Shown: positions 3,786 through 11,349 of the stretch, piece by piece | How positions within the stretch are numbered: the stretch's first letter is position 1 | How the letters are laid out: every line of letters starts with the position of its first letter | NCBI GenBank assembly: GCA_947479915.1 | Contig: CANKAU010000004.1 | Location: 60,655-124,654, forward strand | Direction: 5' to 3' | Length of the DNA: 64,000 bases | Origin: Chloroflexota bacterium | GTDB taxonomy: Bacteria > Chloroflexota > Dehalococcoidia > UBA2979 | Notes under the pieces: generated by a model | What the model was told of the DNA's origin: nothing | What the model saw: only the letters and a program-made list of their open reading frames with translations | The model's database searches: none | Made by a program: the position numbers and the translations under genes

Positions 3786-6245
3786 GTGACCACTACTGGT
3801 GCGCAGACGCGCACATTCACGACCGAGATCGAGGGCAAGACCCTGGAGATCGGCCTCGGCCGGCTGGCCCAGAACGCCGCCGCCTCCTGCACCATCCGTT
3901 ACGGCGACACGGTGCTCCTGATGACGGTCTGCGAGGGCGACCCGCGCCCCGGACTGGACTTCTTCCCGCTGACCGTCGACTACGAAGAGCGCATGTACGC
4001 GATCGGCAAGATCCCGGGCTCGTTCTTCCGTCGCGAGGGTCGCCCCGGCACGGACGCGACGCTCACCGCGCGCATGACCGACCGCCCGATCCGCCCGCTC
4101 TTCCCGAAGGGCTTCAAGCGCGAGGTGGAGATCGCCGCGCTGCTGATCGCCTCCGACCGTGAGAACCCTGCGGACCCGCTGGCCGCCACGGCTGCCTCGG
4201 TCTGCATCAACATCTCGAAGCTGCCGTTCGAGGGCCCGGTGTCCTCGGTCCGCGTCGGTCGTGTGAACGGCAAGTTCAAGGCGTTCCCGACGTACGCCGA
4301 GCTCAAGGAGTCCGACCTTGAGCTGACCGTCGCCGCCACGCCCGACTCGATCGTCATGCTCGAGGCCGGCGCGAACCAGATGCCCGAGGCCGAGCTCATC
4401 GAGGCCATCGAGTACGGCGAGAAGATCTGCCAGCAGCTCAACGACCTGCAGAAGCAGATCATCGCTGAGATGGCCCAGCCGAAGATGGCGTGGAGCAAGC
4501 CCGAGGAAGACCACACCCTCGAGGACCGCATCCGCGAGCACCTGAAGGACCGCGGCCAGGAGATGCTGGACGCCGTCCAGGGCGAGGGCTTCCGCGGCAT
4601 CGACGAGATGGGCAAGCGCGTCTACGCGGAGCTCTCCGCGACCGACGCTGCGATCGACGAGAAGGCCGTGCGCGGCGCCACCGAGGTGGTGCTGAAGGCG
4701 TACGTCCGCAGTCGCGTGCTGAACGACGACGTCCGCGCCGACGGCCGCACCTCCACCCAGATCCGCCCGATCTCCGCTGACGTCGGCGTGCTGCCGCGCG
4801 TCCACGGCTCGGGCCTCTTCCAGCGCGGCCAGACGCAGGTTCTGACCGTTGCCACGCTGGGCGCCATTCGTGACCGGGCCAAGATGGACAACATCGACCC
4901 GACCGAGTGGAAGATGTACATGCACCACTACAACTTCCCGGCCTTCTCGGTCGGCGAGGCGCGTGGTCTGCGTGGTCCGGGCCGTCGCGAGATCGGTCAC
5001 GGCATGCTCGCCGAGAAGGCGCTGCTGCCGGTGCTCCCCTCTTTCGCGGACTTCCCCTACACGCTGCGTGTCGTCTCTGACGTGCTGCAGTCCAACGGGT
5101 CGACCTCGCAGGGTGCGGTGTGTGGTTCCACGCTCGCGCTGATGGACGCCGGTGTCCCGATCAAGGCGCCGGTTTCCGGCATCGCGATGGGCCTGATGAC
5201 GTCCGACGAGAACGCCACGTCGTACAAGATCCTCACCGACATCGCCGGCATCGAGGACGCGTTCGGCGACATGGACTTCAAGGTCGCGGGCACCGAGACC
5301 GGTGTCACCGCGGTTCAGCTGGACATCAAGCTGAAGAAGCTCCCGGCGAACTTCCTGCAGGACGTGTTCTCCCGCGCCCGCGAGGCGCGCATGCACATCA
5401 TGGGCGTCATGCTGGCCGCGCTCCCCGCACCGCGCGAGGAAGTCGGCGAGTTCGCGCCGAAGATCACCTCGATCAAGATCGACCCGAGCAAGATCGGTGC
5501 GGTCATTGGACCGGGCGGCCGCGTGATCAACGCGATCATCGCCGCTACGGGCGCCTCCATCGACGTGGAGGAGGACGGCTCGATCTTCGTGGGTGGCGCT
5601 GACGCCGAGGGCGTGAAGCAGGCCATCCGCCAGATCCAGGGCCTGACGAAGGAGATCATCCCGGGCGAGGTCTTCGAAGGCCCTGTGTCGCGGATCATGT
5701 CCTTCGGCGCGTTTGTCGAGATCCTGCCCGGCAAGGACGGCATGGTCCACATCTCCGAGCTGGCCGAGGGCCGCGTGGAGCGTGTGGAGGACGTCGTCCA
5801 GGTCGGCGACCGCGTCAAGGTGAAGGTGATCGAGGTGGACAACCTCGGCCGCATCAACCTCTCGATGCGTGACGTGGACAACGCCGACGGCGGCGTCGGC
5901 ATGAGCGACGACGATGTCGCGCGTGGCGATGGCCCGCGCGGCGGTGGTGGCTTCGGCGGCGGCGACCGTGGCCCGCGCCCGGGTGGCGGCGGTGGTCGCG
6001 GTGGCGACCGCGGCGGCCCGCCCCGTGGCGGCGGCGGTGGCCGTGGTGGCGACCGAGGTGGCCCGCCGCGTGGTGGCGGGGACCGTGGTCCTCGTCCCGG
6101 TGGCGCCTTCGACCGCAACGACGGTCCCCCGCGCAACGACGCTCCTCGCGAGGACCGTCCGCCCCGTGAGGACCGCCCCCCGCGCGAGGATCGCCCCGCC
6201 GGTGGGGACGCCCCTCGTCCCGGTGGCGGCGGGCGTCGCTGGTAA
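3786..6245 (+). CDS. pnp: Polyribonucleotide nucleotidyltransferase with RG/G-rich C-terminal tail
   Basis: PNPase core, KH (KIGAVIGPGGRVINAI) and S1 (GEVFEGPVSRIMSFGAFVEILPGKDGMVHISEL) domains; GTG start at 3786 preceded by AAGAGGT. Confidence 0.97.
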   Translation: MTTTGAQTRTFTTEIEGKTLEIGLGRLAQNAAASCTIRYGDTVLLMTVCEGDPRPGLDFFPLTVDYEERMYAIGKIPGSFFRREGRPGTDATLTARMTDRPIRPLFPKGFKREVEIAALLIASDRENPADPLAATAASVCINISKLPFEGPVSSVRVGRVNGKFKAFPTYAELKESDLELTVAATPDSIVMLEAGANQMPEAELIEAIEYGEKICQQLNDLQKQIIAEMAQPKMAWSKPEEDHTLEDRIREHLKDRGQEMLDAVQGEGFRGIDEMGKRVYAELSATDAAIDEKAVRGATEVVLKAYVRSRVLNDDVRADGRTSTQIRPISADVGVLPRVHGSGLFQRGQTQVLTVATLGAIRDRAKMDNIDPTEWKMYMHHYNFPAFSVGEARGLRGPGRREIGHGMLAEKALLPVLPSFADFPYTLRVVSDVLQSNGSTSQGAVCGSTLALMDAGVPIKAPVSGIAMGLMTSDENATSYKILTDIAGIEDAFGDMDFKVAGTETGVTAVQLDIKLKKLPANFLQDVFSRAREARMHIMGVMLAALPAPREEVGEFAPKITSIKIDPSKIGAVIGPGGRVINAIIAATGASIDVEEDGSIFVGGADAEGVKQAIRQIQGLTKEIIPGEVFEGPVSRIMSFGAFVEILPGKDGMVHISELAEGRVERVEDVVQVGDRVKVKVIEVDNLGRINLSMRDVDNADGGVGMSDDDVARGDGPRGGGGFGGGDRGPRPGGGGGRGGDRGGPPRGGGGGRGGDRGGPPRGGGDRGPRPGGAFDRNDGPPRNDAPREDRPPREDRPPREDRPAGGDAPRPGGGGRRW

Positions 6246-6269
6246 GCCAGCGCGCGTAAGCGAACATCG

Positions 6270-6297
6270 AGAAGCCCGGCAGCAATGCCGGGCTTCT
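6270..6297 (+). terminator. Rho-independent terminator after pnp
   Basis: AGAAGCCCGGC-AGCAAT-GCCGGGCTTCT then TGTT. Confidence 0.8.
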
Positions 6298-6344
6298 TGT
6301 TGCCCTCGGGCGGATCGCGGAGCAGCGACCGCCTGGGCCAGCGA

Positions 6345-6605
6345 TGCTCGGGGCGTTGAGGTGCCTTGCGGTGGGCGGCCCACCCCTGCCCCTCCCGGCG
6401 CGGGAGGGGGATGAAGTTCAAAGGGCTGTGCCCTTTGAGGATCCCGATCTCGGTCGGATCTGCGGGCCGCGCACCGCTGGGAGACTCGATGCCTCCGCCG
6501 GGAGTGTGAGGGGGCGCAGCCCCTCACAACATCCTCTGAATTCTGAGCCGCTCCCGCGCCGGGAGGGGGCAGGGGTGGGCCCCCGTAGCACCTCGACGCT
6601 GCGAG
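6345..6605. repeat. Composite inverted-pair intergenic repeat, element A (upstream of dapB)
   Basis: Left arm GGCGGCCCACCCCTGCCCCTCCCGGCGCGGGAGGGGG (~6374-6410) and right arm CTCCCGCGCCGGGAGGGGGCAGGGGTGGGC (~6551-6580) are inverted copies; internal hairpins at 6418-6438 and 6506-6527. Confidence 0.8.
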
Positions 6606-6724
6606 GCGAGCGACGACTACGCGTCGCGCCGATGCCGCTCCCCCCGCGCCCGGATAGACTGCGCACCACGACAGCAACGACCTCGCGCGCAGCCCGAGCG
6701 GCGTCGAGGAGACAGGGGACGGCG

Positions 6725-7519
6725 ATGATCCGCGTAGCGATCTGCGGCACCGGGACGATGGGCCAGCTCGTGCTCGAAACGATCGAGGCGCAGGAGGACC
6801 TGCAGCCCGTCGGCTTCGTCGAGCCGCTCGCGCAGGGCGACGAGGAGCACCGCGCCAGCAGCGGCACCACCTACGGCGTGCACGCCGACCCGAACGCGCT
6901 GTTCGAGCGCACGCACCCGGACGTGGTGGTGGACTTCACCAACGCGCAGTTCACCCCCGCGCTGGTGGACGCCGCGCTCAAGCACGGCGTGCGCCCCGTC
7001 ATCGGCACGTCGGGCGTGGACGCCGCCACGATCGCGAAGCTGCGCGAGGGCTCCGCGGCCGCCGGGCGCGGCGCGGTCTACGCCGCGAACTTCGCCATCG
7101 GCGCCGTGCTCCAGATGTACATGGCCGCGCTCGCGTCGAGGTTCTTCGACAGTGCGGAGATCATCGAGCTGCACCACGACCGCAAGGTGGACGCGCCCAG
7201 CGGCACCGCGCTCACCACGGCGCGCCTCATGCGCGCCGCGCGCGACAGCGACTTCACCATGAACGTGCCCGCGCTGGAGCATCTCCCCGGCGGTCGAGGC
7301 GCGGACACCGGCGGCGTGCCCATCCACTCCGTGCGGCTGCCCGGCTTCGTCGCGTCGCAGGAGGTGATCTTCGGCGGCTTCGGCCAGACGCTGACGCTCC
7401 GCCACGACACCACCGGCCGCGAGGCGTTCATGCCCGGCGTGGTGATTGCCGTGCGCGAGGTGATGAACCGCACCGGTCTCGTCGAGGGCCTCGACCAGCT
7501 CGTCGGCCTCGGAGGGTAG
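6725..7519 (+). CDS. dapB: 4-hydroxy-tetrahydrodipicolinate reductase
   Basis: ICGTGTMGQLV, ANFAIGAVLQMYMA, ELHHDRKVDAPSGTAL. Confidence 0.95.
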   Translation: MIRVAICGTGTMGQLVLETIEAQEDLQPVGFVEPLAQGDEEHRASSGTTYGVHADPNALFERTHPDVVVDFTNAQFTPALVDAALKHGVRPVIGTSGVDAATIAKLREGSAAAGRGAVYAANFAIGAVLQMYMAALASRFFDSAEIIELHHDRKVDAPSGTALTTARLMRAARDSDFTMNVPALEHLPGGRGADTGGVPIHSVRLPGFVASQEVIFGGFGQTLTLRHDTTGREAFMPGVVIAVREVMNRTGLVEGLDQLVGLGG

Positions 7520-7524
7520 TTTCC

Positions 7525-7812
7525 ATGAACATGCAGTCGTTCGGTCTGATGGACATGCAGCTCCGCATCGACCCGGACGCGCGCACGCTCTACATCGTCC
7601 TCGGCCACAGCGGCGAGATGGCGATGGAGTCCCGCGAGCTGGATGAGCGCCGCACGCTGGAGTACGACCTGAAGGGCGACCTCGTCGGCGTCGAGTTCCT
7701 CGACATCGACGAGGGCATCGACCTCGACGGCGTCCCCGCCGCCTCGAGGATCGCGCGCGCGCTCGGCATCATGCGCGCGGTGGAGTGGACGTGGAGTGAG
7801 GGGCAGGGGTAG
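7525..7812 (+). CDS. DUF2283-like small protein
   Basis: LRIDPDARTLYIVL...LEYDLKGDLVGVEFLDIDEGIDL pattern. Confidence 0.55.
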   Translation: MNMQSFGLMDMQLRIDPDARTLYIVLGHSGEMAMESRELDERRTLEYDLKGDLVGVEFLDIDEGIDLDGVPAASRIARALGIMRAVEWTWSEGQG

Positions 7813-7817
7813 GCGAC

Positions 7818-8699
7818 GTGCAGCCTTTCGAGCGTATCGGGCTGAACGAACGTGACCTCGCGTTGGTGGCATGGCTGAGCATCGGCCTGTCTGCAGCATT
7901 GCTAAAGCGCGATGTCCGACAGAGCGCGTTGTCCGTCCTCAAACTGGCAATCACTCCGAAGCTCCTCGTCCCCTGCGTGGTCCGAGCGATTGGCACCTTT
8001 TGGGCCTGTCGTCTCGGGTCTTCATTCGGCCTTTGGAATCAAGGGCTCGCGAAGGACACTGTCGTTTGGTACTTGAGCGCGGGTCTTGGCGGATTTGGGT
8101 CTGCGGTCTCAGCGAAGAACTCACATTTCATCTGGCTGTTCGTACGCCGATCGGTCGCGTTAGCCGCGGTGGCGGAGCTCTTCACGAACGGTCTGTTCGT
8201 GTTCTCCCTTCCGACTGAACTTCTGCTTCAACCGGTTCTTATCTTCGTTGGTGTGTTGGGGGCCGTCGCCGCGACGAAGGCAGAGTACAAGTCGGTGAAG
8301 CGGCTCACCGATGGGATCCTCTTCACGCTCGGACTCTTAATCGTGGTCTTCGTGACCCGACGACTTGTTGAAGCGTGGGACAAGCTCGACGGCGCGCAGT
8401 TGGTTAGAGAACTGGTGTTGCCACTGTGGCTATCAAGCGCCACCGTCGCCTTCTTGTTTGGAATGTCTCTGTTCTCTGGTTATGAGCAGCTCTTCACACA
8501 CCTCCGGTCGCAGAGCACAACGAGTCAAATTCGATGGTTCGTGACGCTTTCGTTGGTGTTTCGTCTCAACATTCGACTTGCGGCAGTGACATCGCTTAGT
8601 CATGCGTGGCGGTGGAAATTGGCCCGCGCGGAGTCCCTCCGCGAGGCCTGGGTTCTCGTGGGAACGTACCTGCGTGAGCCCGACTCCGAGCCTGTCTAA
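7818..8699 (+). CDS. Multi-pass membrane protein of unknown function
   Basis: 293-aa ORF, several hydrophobic segments, visibly lower GC than neighbours. Confidence 0.6.
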   Translation: MQPFERIGLNERDLALVAWLSIGLSAALLKRDVRQSALSVLKLAITPKLLVPCVVRAIGTFWACRLGSSFGLWNQGLAKDTVVWYLSAGLGGFGSAVSAKNSHFIWLFVRRSVALAAVAELFTNGLFVFSLPTELLLQPVLIFVGVLGAVAATKAEYKSVKRLTDGILFTLGLLIVVFVTRRLVEAWDKLDGAQLVRELVLPLWLSSATVAFLFGMSLFSGYEQLFTHLRSQSTTSQIRWFVTLSLVFRLNIRLAAVTSLSHAWRWKLARAESLREAWVLVGTYLREPDSEPV

Positions 8700-8822
8700 G
8701 CGCATGCTTCTGCCTCCTCGCCCCTGCCTTCCCCGCCCGTTATCCTGAACGCACGTCGCTCGCGGTGGGCGACGACCCCTGGCGCTGTATCCGCCCACGA
8801 GGGCTTCGAGGTGCGCGCCCCC

Positions 8823-9860
8823 ATGTCCGAGGAGCCGATCGTGGAGCCAGTTGTCGCCGTCATCGGGGCCACCGGTGCCGTGGGGGATGTCTTCCTTCGC
8901 GTCGCTGAGCAGCGCGAGTTCCCGATGAAGCAGCTCAAGCTCCTCGCCTCGCCCCGCTCCGTGGGCAAGCAGCTCATGTTCCGCGGCCAGCCGATCACCG
9001 TGGAGGACACCACCGAGCAGACGCTCGAGGGCGCCGACATCGTCTTCTGCTCCGCGTCCAGCGCCGTGTCGAAGCAGTGGGGCCCATGGCTCCGCGCTCG
9101 CAACGCCGTGATGATCGATGACGGCTCCGCGTTCCGCATGGACGCGGACGTGCCGCTGGTCGTCCCGGAGGTCAACGGCGACGACCTCGAATGGCACAAG
9201 GGCATCGTCTCGATCCCGAACTGCACCACCACCCCGCTGGTCATGGCGCTCAACGCCATGCGGCAGGTCGCGCCGCTGAAGCGCGTCACGGCTGCCAGCT
9301 ACCAGGCGGTCACCGGCACGGGCGCGGCGGCGAAGGCCGAGCTGGAGGCGCAGATCGGCCACATCGGTCGCGGCGAGCCCGTGCCCGCTCCCACCGTGTA
9401 CCCCGTCCAGATCGCGATGAACGTGCTGCCGCAGGTGGACGACTTTGACGAGGACGACTACACGAAGGAGGAGCTGAAGATGCGCAACGAGACGCGCAAG
9501 ATCCTCCACCTCGACACGCTGCCGTTCGCGGCGACCTGCGTGCGCGTCCCCGTGGTCGTCTCGCACTCCGAGGCCGTGCACGCCGAGTTCACGTCCGAGG
9601 CCTCCATCGCGCGGATCATCGACGCGCTGAAGTCGCAGGCCGGCGTGGTGGTGACCGAGGACCCGACGACGTACATGACCCCGCTGCAGGCGGCGGGCGA
9701 CGACCTGGTCTACGTCTCGCGCATCCGTCGCGACCCGACGGTGGAGCACGGCATCGTCTTCTGGTGCGTCACGGACAACCTGCGCAAGGGCGCCGCCACC
9801 AACGCGATCCAGATCGCCGAGGAGATGCTGCGCCGCAACCTGGTCCCCGGCGCGAAGTAG
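8823..9860 (+). CDS. asd: Aspartate-semialdehyde dehydrogenase
   Basis: VAVIGATGAVGDVFLRVAEQREFP, ISIPNCTTTPLVMAL-like active site (VSIPNCTTTPLVMAL). Confidence 0.95.
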   Translation: MSEEPIVEPVVAVIGATGAVGDVFLRVAEQREFPMKQLKLLASPRSVGKQLMFRGQPITVEDTTEQTLEGADIVFCSASSAVSKQWGPWLRARNAVMIDDGSAFRMDADVPLVVPEVNGDDLEWHKGIVSIPNCTTTPLVMALNAMRQVAPLKRVTAASYQAVTGTGAAAKAELEAQIGHIGRGEPVPAPTVYPVQIAMNVLPQVDDFDEDDYTKEELKMRNETRKILHLDTLPFAATCVRVPVVVSHSEAVHAEFTSEASIARIIDALKSQAGVVVTEDPTTYMTPLQAAGDDLVYVSRIRRDPTVEHGIVFWCVTDNLRKGAATNAIQIAEEMLRRNLVPGAK

Positions 9861-9903
9861 CGCCGGAGCCCCCGCGGAGCGGCGAGGCCGTCGCGCGCGA
9901 GGG

Positions 9904-10316
9904 CGGTCGAGGAGACTGCGAGGGGCGGCCCATCCCCCTGCCCCCTTCCCGGCGCGGGAAGGGGGATAAGAAGCGAGGGCTACCGCCCTCGCGCTCCCCG
10001 TCCGAACCGAGGGTGCTGCGCACCTCGGGATACAGAACTCGCCGATCCCACACCCCGCCTTCACGTCGACGCCCGGCCTCCGGCCCCCTCGCCCACGCAG
10101 TGGGAGAGGGCGGGGGGTGAGGGCGCACCACGCACCTCGTCAGCGCGGCGCCCCCTCGACATCCCCGTCCCACGACCGCGCCCTCGTCCGACCCGCCCGA
10201 GGTGGGCCGCACGCTCGGTTCCGGGATGCTCGAAGGGGCGCAGCCCCTTCGAATCTCAACCCCTCCCGCGCCGGGAGGGGCAGGGGTGGGCCGCCCCTCG
10301 CAGTCTCCTCGACGTC
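9904..10316. repeat. Composite inverted-pair intergenic repeat, element B (upstream of dapA)
   Basis: TCGAGGAGACTGCGAGGGGCGGCCCA (from 9908) recurs inverted at ~10288-10313; arms extend through CCCCTCCCGGCGCGGGAGGGG; internal hairpins 9973-9992, 10086-10110, 10230-10252. Confidence 0.85.
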
Positions 10317-10434
10317 GCTGGTCCCTCGCCCCGGCGCGCCGAGGGGAGTGGGCCGCCCCCCATCCCAGCGGCTACACTGCGCACCTGACACCCAGCGGCT
10401 CGCCGCCGCCCCGCCTGCCCTCGAGGACCCGACC

Positions 10435-11349
10435 ATGACTGCACCGCTCGGCCGCCTGCTCACCGCGATGGTCACGCCCATGACGCCCGCCGGCGACGTG
10501 GACCTGGAGGCGACGAAGGTGCTCGCGAAGGCGCTGGTCGCCTCGGGCACGGACGGCATCGTCTCCACCGGCAGCACCGGCGAGGCCGCCACCCTGTCCG
10601 ACGAGGAGACCGTGGCCGTGTGGGTCGCGACGAAGGAGGCGGTGGGCGCGGACGTCGCCGTGATCGCCGGCGCGACGAACAACGACACGCGCCGCTCGAT
10701 CCGCCTCGCCCGCGAGGCCGATCGCGTGGGCCTGGACGGCGTCCTGCTCACGGTGCCCGCGTACAGCAAACCGCCGCAGTCCGGCCTCATCCGCCACTTC
10801 ACGGCGATCGCGGAGGCCACCTCGCTGCCCGGCATCCTGTACAACGTGCCGAGCCGCGCCGCCCTGAACATGCCGATGCCGACCGTGGCCACGCTGGCCA
10901 ACGTGCCGAACATCGTCGGCATCAAGGAGGCGAGCGGCGACCTCAACCAGATCAGCGCGATCATCGACGCCACGTCCTCGCACGGCGACGGCTTCCGCGT
11001 GTGGTCAGGCAACGACAGCGACACGCTCGCGGTGATAGCACTCGGCGGCTACGGCGTGGTCAGCGTCGCGAGCCACCTCGTCGGCCGCCAGATCCGCGCG
11101 ATGATCGACGCGAGCCTCGCGGGCCGCAACGCCGAGGCCGCCGCGATCCACCACCGCCTGACGCCGCTCGTCGACATGCTGTTCGTGGAGAGCAACCCGA
11201 TCCCCGTGAAGTACGCGGTGAACCTCGCCGGCATCGTCGTCGGCGACTGCCGCCTCCCGCTCGTCCCCCCGTCCGAGTCCGCCGCCACGCTGCTGCGCGC
11301 CGAGCTCGCCCGCCACGCGATCGACCTCAAGGCCGCTGTGGGGGTGTAG
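10435..11349 (+). CDS. dapA: 4-hydroxy-tetrahydrodipicolinate synthase
   Basis: GRLLTAMVTPMTPAGDVDLEA, STGSTGEAATLSDEE, YNVPSRAALNM, GIKEASGDLNQIS. Confidence 0.96.
   Translation: MTAPLGRLLTAMVTPMTPAGDVDLEATKVLAKALVASGTDGIVSTGSTGEAATLSDEETVAVWVATKEAVGADVAVIAGATNNDTRRSIRLAREADRVGLDGVLLTVPAYSKPPQSGLIRHFTAIAEATSLPGILYNVPSRAALNMPMPTVATLANVPNIVGIKEASGDLNQISAIIDATSSHGDGFRVWSGNDSDTLAVIALGGYGVVSVASHLVGRQIRAMIDASLAGRNAEAAAIHHRLTPLVDMLFVESNPIPVKYAVNLAGIVVGDCRLPLVPPSESAATLLRAELARHAIDLKAAVGV

Follow-up and report, generated by a model that had tools for sequence, protein, structure and literature searches.

Composite hairpin elements beside dapB and dapA

The 64,000-nucleotide stretch analysed here, which we refer to as the window, corresponds to positions 60655-124654 of contig C4 in the genome of an uncultured Chloroflexota bacterium of the class Dehalococcoidia (GenBank assembly GCA_947479915.1, hereafter G000; 2.32 Mb in 67 contigs, 93.6% complete). 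In named genome collections, proteins related to the asd product come from Chloroflexota of this class. The gene order at the studied locus is pnp, element 1, dapB, a gene for a DUF2283 protein, an unknown open reading frame (ORF) of 293 amino acids, asd, element 2 and dapA, where elements 1 and 2 each contain an inverted pair of related two-hairpin units (6345-6605 and 9904-10316; Table 1). The coordinates and orientations of all four units agreed with those in a preliminary description made from the sequence alone. Two further statements of that description held, namely that the stems of the second hairpin vary in sequence among copies while pairing is retained, and that some units carry an ATCCCG...ACCGAG-GTGC-GC-CACC tail, which proved to be a further hairpin (CCGAGGGTGCTGCGCACCTCGG) recurring in relatives as CCGAGGTGCGAAGCACCCTCGG. 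The arm motif CCCCTGCCCCTCCCGSCGCGGGAGGGG, with three or fewer mismatches allowed, was found twice in the window and not once in 100 dinucleotide shuffles.

Read 5' to 3', a unit comprises a terminal arm (TCGAGGTGc..CG.GG), the motif GGGCGGCCCAyCCCC, hairpin 1 (in the form CCCCTCCCG-GCG-CGGGAGGGG or CCCCCTTCCC-TGC-GCGGGAAGGGGG), a linker, hairpin 2 and a tail, and the consensus of the inverted terminal arm is TCGAGGTG..CG.GGGGCGGCCCAyCCCC. The outer limits first assigned to the units needed correction: they reach outward to the TCGAGGTG-type motif about 18 nt upstream of GGCGGCCC, where conservation ends, with weaker copy-specific complementarity beyond. The left and right flanks within one copy are complementary above the level seen against other copies up to about 60 nt and no further (permutation p 0.0002-0.0004). 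The arm limits together with this within-copy complementarity therefore give a whole element of about 300-400 bp, and each inverted pair is better viewed as a single composite element, for which the predicted fold is a single long, branched hairpin.

The same arrangement prevails throughout the family described below. Among neighbouring units less than 800 bp apart, 39 of 43 pairs are convergent ("+-") with a spacing of 74-298 bp (p about 1e-19 under a null of equal orientations). A composite has two unlike halves: the C half terminates in GTGTGAGGAGCTGCGCCCCTCACACTCCCGGCGGA, and the other half in GCGAGGGCTTCGCCCTCGC-GCTCCC, TTCAAAGGGCTTCGCCCTTTGA-GGATCCC and similar sequences. One C and one B half face each other in 28 of the 39 composites, and the palindromes GGTGCGAGTGATTCGnACC and CCGAGGTGCGAAGCACCCTCGG lie between the halves in many copies. 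A second palindromic repeat type (CCCTCGCCCACGCAGTGGGAGAGGG..., CCCTCTCCC...GGGAGAGGG) was observed inside element 2 (10083-10125) and next to other units, such as the one at G000:C1:82386 (L008), which it follows.

A repeat family restricted to one genus and a few relatives

The units of the window belong to a multicopy family. A BLAST search of the whole genome with unit 1 returned 26 matches at E < 0.01, and R1, a covariance model built from seven copies, also reached 26 matches at E <= 0.01, a number that rose to 33 at E <= 1; the further genome-wide copies expected from the preliminary description were thus found. Searched with R1, the remaining five genus genomes (G001-G005) yielded at least 87, 92, 117, 18 and 118 matches. 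Three genomes of the same family, G014, G016 and G019, contained 36, 8 and 26, while most other family members contained none. Across 393 genomes of the class, every one of the six genus members contained the exact motif, and so did a single genome (G014) among the remaining 387; the reversed pattern occurred in none. No match to the repeat was found in phages, plasmids or viral contigs. The family is therefore limited to one Dehalococcoidia genus plus a few relatives and, as far as the literature was searched, has not previously been described in this uncultured Chloroflexota lineage.

A regular-expression search detected 147 units in 2.39 Mb, compared with three in order-3 Markov sequence of similar length. 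Backward-read sequence was misleading as a control, since the element is nearly symmetric and 41 of the 45 control matches fell on real units; the Markov control was used instead. For G000, G002, G003 and G005, densities per Mb were about 22, 52, 86 and 96 units, figures that refer to the scanned parts of each genome and, for G000, to a sample biased toward contigs with matches. Copy number per genome ranges from dozens to, judging by density, about two hundred.

Table 1 Features of the composite elements and their surroundings (window coordinates; R1 scores are bits)
Feature	Position	Strand	Characteristics
Composite element 1, pnp/dapB gap	6340..6612	.	ATCCCG-type-tail half on +, C-type half on -; conserved arm ends GTTGAGGTG (6355-6363) and ACCTCGAC (6589-6596)
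Unit 1	6355..6446	+	Terminal arm, GGGCGGCCCACCCC, hairpin 1, hairpin 2, ATCCCG tail; R1 82.3, E 1.6e-15 (whole-genome search); also in BLAST family
Hairpin 1, unit 1	6389..6409	+	CCCCTCCCG-GCG-CGGGAGGGG; sequence, covarying helix 1
Hairpin 2, unit 1	6418..6438	+	TCAAAGGGC-TGT-GCCCTTTGA; sequence, covarying helix 2
Unit 2, C-type half	6495..6597	-	Arm, imperfect hairpin 1 (6549-6569), hairpin 2 (6505-6528; TGTGAGGGG...CCCCTCACA), CTCCCGGCGG tail; R1 31.6 (6536-6588); typed as C
Composite element 2, asd/dapA gap	9895..10330	.	B-type half (+ strand) facing ATCCCG-type half (- strand); outer arms GTCGAGGAGACTGCGAGGGGCGGCCCA nearly perfect (31 nt, 97% complementary)
Unit 3, B-type half	9907..10029	+	Arm, hairpin 1 (9941-9965), hairpin 2 (9973-9992), hairpin CCGAGGGTGCTGCGCACCTCGG (10007-10028); R1 50.8, E 2.7e-8 (whole-genome search)
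Unit 4	10222..10313	-	Arm (10283-10313), hairpin 1 (10260-10280), hairpin 2 (10230-10252), ATCCCGG tail; R1 103.7, E 2.0e-20; belongs to R1 seed
dapB	6725..7519	+	Pfam DapB_N/DapB_C; neighbour, outside element
asd, aspartate-semialdehyde dehydrogenase	8811..9860	+	Pfam Semialdhyde_dh + Semialdhyde_dhC; neighbour
dapA	10435..11349	+	Pfam DHDPS; neighbour
PNPase C-terminus	5905..6245	+	Long tail rich in glycine/arginine/aspartate/proline, RGG-like
Hairpin on the 3' side of pnp	6274..6300	+	Intrinsic-terminator-like, AAGCCCGGCAGCAATGCCGGGCTTCTTGTT; weak sub-threshold Rfam similarity to CC0196
293-amino-acid ORF	7818..8699	+	No Pfam match; atypical composition; overlooked by codon-usage gene caller

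Search for a mobilising enzyme

A key question is whether the units are repetitive extragenic palindromes (REPs), or the paired REPs known as REPINs, moved by a RAYT, that is, a Y1 HUH transposase of the TnpA-REP type, which the preliminary description had suggested looking for. Hairpin units arranged as inverted dimers, intergenic and biased toward the 3' sides of genes, are found in REPs as well (PMC3733652), and the retention of hairpins at the DNA level is what a single-strand-specific transposase would need. However, the Y1 domain (PF01797) was found neither in G000 nor in the other carriers, G001-G005, G014, G016 and G019 (72-94% complete), while the same search was positive in control genomes and in six relatives, all six without an R1 match. 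The unit is also far longer than a REP and shows neither a GTAG nor a CGTC tag at the foot of its stem: hairpin 1 is preceded by CCCAyCCCC(C)TG, and the (g)TCGAGG motif, which is about 18 nt upstream of GGCGGCCC, is well removed from the stem. We therefore consider mobilisation by a RAYT very unlikely.

Genomic placement and neighbouring genes

For the placement counts, genes were called with a simple codon-usage caller. Intergenic DNA harbors 128 of 141 units, compared with 11.5% expected. Regions between convergent genes are over-represented (31 of 84; odds ratio 3.3, p 2e-6), regions between divergent genes, which hold promoters, are under-represented (9 of 84; odds ratio 0.33, p 0.001), and the direction of composites relative to tandem genes is even (8 versus 7).

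The pairs do lie just before dapB and dapA, but there is nothing particular about this position, because the family adjoins many unrelated genes. In G000 these neighbors include, besides DapB and DapA, genes for what we take, by recognition, to be a MerR-type regulator, a CoA-binding protein, Lgt, MoeA, MreB, MenD, isochorismate synthase, aminopeptidase N, CinA and TsaD. Siting before lysine genes thus represents two cases among many, and with such functionally mixed neighbors a role specific to lysine biosynthesis is not indicated.

The 3' siting, the enrichment between convergent genes and the GC-rich hairpins would also suit bidirectional transcription terminators or stabilisers of mRNA 3' ends, although the hairpins are not followed by a U-run, and element 1, which precedes dapB, lies downstream of a terminator-like hairpin belonging to pnp itself. 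Moreover, sister species have copy numbers several-fold apart and often lack the element at a given site, and a terminator or stabiliser function accordingly appears quite improbable.

DNA structure or RNA

Another important question is whether the conserved pairing reflects an RNA. Fitting 57 copies to the model gave an alignment in which 97.7% of cells paired, with 118 two-sided against 2 one-sided changes (30 two-sided in shuffles); the alignment was fitted to the structure, and its absolute pairing values consequently lean toward structure. In a selection-free test, 41% of 146 units had a perfect stem of 8 bp or longer on the 3' side of hairpin 1, compared with 0.6% of shuffles. The hairpin-2 alignment A5 had been chosen by complementarity and was excluded as evidence of covariation. 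Two-sided changes dominate the stems, and the covariation reported earlier was thus retained among the copies. Structural RNAs are expected to show many G-U intermediates. The outer arms contain G.T and A.C mismatches in similar numbers (83 and 99), and therefore neither strand is favoured. Because the mismatches are strand-symmetric and composites lie both ways relative to tandem genes, the data point to a constraint, or a templated repair process, that acts on DNA rather than on one RNA. Template switching at quasipalindromes is a known mutational process acting on DNA (PMC7202029) and may have a part in this repeat family. Covariation among repeat copies need not imply RNA function.

These observations bear on the proposal that the units are a structured cis-regulatory RNA or small RNA, riboswitch- or attenuator-like, serving the downstream lysine genes. 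The strong predicted folds and the covariation are in its favour, as is the occupation of the regions upstream of both dapB and dapA in G000 and at the loci L031 and L032 of two other genus members, with dapA noted in L033 and dapB in L045. In the relative L034, however, the aligned flanks of asd and dapA are only about 120 bp apart, and the gap yielded no unit. Searches against Rfam 15 gave no covariance-model match at the gathering threshold in the window, and a permissive search of 6250-10450 gave two sub-threshold matches, both on the terminator-like hairpin of pnp and none within the units. Together with the equal orientations, the strand symmetry, the avoidance of divergent promoters, the convergent-gene enrichment and the mixed neighbors, this leaves the regulatory-RNA and lysine interpretation of the preliminary description unsupported and, in our view, highly improbable.

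Turnover at orthologous sites

The genomes G003 (locus L031) and G005 (locus L032) are close, with flanks 91-97% identical at the dapB and dapA sites. Nevertheless, the composites lie in opposite orientation in these sister species at three sites, namely dapB, dapA and CL32 (flank identity 85-97% across the three), and in the same orientation at two other shared sites. The likeness of contents at dapB (ranks 22/18 of 27) and CL32 (14/9 of 27) was no better than that of random copies, and the likeness at dapA was only somewhat above that level (6/2 of 27); a simple recent inversion was rejected, as the contents are not recognisable as orthologous at two of the three sites. At several other sites, one of the two genomes lacks the element or retains a mere remnant, and many sites of G002 are short in G000. 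The differences in occupancy, content and orientation therefore indicate that copies are gained, lost, swapped or flipped faster than their flanks diverge. That the element is an invertible DNA switch whose inverted arms flip the enclosed segment and alter the sequence facing the neighboring gene is in our view very unlikely, for although opposite orientation at three of five shared sites would fit, replacement or independent insertion explains the contents at least equally well.

Origin of the family and comparison with known systems

Taken together, the units are probably halves of a non-coding interspersed DNA repeat of the mobile type, resembling miniature inverted-repeat transposable elements (MITEs) and bacterial interspersed mosaic elements (BIMEs) and having the look of a relic mobile element. 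Features of MITEs are the terminal inverted repeats (TIRs), the multiple copies and the location of units outside called genes; features of BIMEs are the inverted, closely spaced, intergenic units. Of the two readings offered by the preliminary description, "REP/MITE-like or regulatory RNA", the first is upheld by copy number, palindromic structure, intergenic location, inverted dimers and presence/absence differences, and the second is not.

We propose that the element would fold as a DNA hairpin or cruciform and that it spread into intergenic DNA, probably by transposition in trans by an enzyme unseen in these genomes, after which selection may have purged promoter copies and left most copies on the 3' sides of genes. 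Following insertion, recombination or template switching between complementary arms could exchange or invert the arms and their contents, and such exchange would keep the stems paired without strand-specific selection. It is conceivable, though we regard it as unlikely, that the conserved sites with non-conserved contents reflect a self-homogenising palindromic element in which the arms let composites swap or flip without a dedicated transposase, possibly with flipping within a population.

Several results weigh against an origin as a mobile-type repeat. Transposases of the four families tested are few in G000-G005: besides the absence of PF01797, DDE_Tnp_1 (PF01609) occurs in one of the six genomes, Transposase_mut (PF00872) in none and rve (PF00665) above the cut-off in one. 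No parental transposon with these arms was found in these incomplete genomes, and just one "+-" pair 0.8-5 kb apart exists in 2.39 Mb. A scan for target-site duplications over all offsets and lengths revealed no direct-repeat excess that stood out, and no clean base-exact empty site was recovered, the flanks being too diverged. Finally, several species carry the element at some of the same orthologous sites (dapA, dapB), which would not be required of an element that is purely parasitic and turns over rapidly.

BIMEs and REP dimers (GTAG and CGTC super-families, PMC3733652) are likewise multicopy intergenic palindromes, mostly inverted dimers, that lie mostly 3' of genes and between convergent and tandem genes, and CGTC REPs are also without a known transposase (PMC3733652). 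In contrast to REPs of 20-40 bp, the present unit is about 100 nt long, with two hairpins and an extended arm, lacks a GTAG- or CGTC-tagged stem and has no RAYT, and unlike in a BIME, the halves of the dimer differ (C and B) and are linked by further hairpins. MITEs such as ERIC, NEMIS and RUP measure 70-300 bp and have TIRs of 15-30 bp (PMC3733652); they share with the present element its non-coding nature, inverted termini, interspersed and patchy distribution and presence/absence among relatives, whereas the latter has longer, hairpin-bearing arms, ordered internal hairpins, no demonstrated target duplication and no parental insertion sequence found. The TIR families of TIRYT transposases ("TIRtrons", PMC3733652) also have long, sometimes doubly palindromic terminal repeats multiplying as dimers; TIRYTs, however, are Y1 proteins, of which the carriers have none, and the GGGGWSAS motif of some such TIRs is absent from the arm consensus. 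In REPINs (PMC3116915), two inverted repeat units similarly form one replicating entity, but these are paired REPs tied to a RAYT, and arms, length and enzyme differ. The bacterial palindromic interspersed repeats thus gain a genus-specific family whose hairpin composite is unusual in being two-sided (C/B) and which provides a clean case for asking how REP- and MITE-like repeats can spread, and their stems stay perfect, when no mobilising enzyme is resident.

Other features of the locus and the compared records

The 293-amino-acid ORF between the DUF2283 gene and asd probably encodes a horizontally acquired membrane protein. Contig C4 carries six of the approximately 23 repeat clusters of G000 on 5% of the genome (p about 0.001); a foreign origin of the contig as the reason for this clustering was not supported, its composition and its identity to relatives being ordinary. 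Two public records, CAMDAY010000002.1 (L032) and CAMBFG010000003.1 (L037), are both titled Dehalococcoides mccartyi. The title of the L032 record looks wrong, as its genome, G005, has a GC content of about 69% and is a member of another lineage, the repeat-bearing genus.

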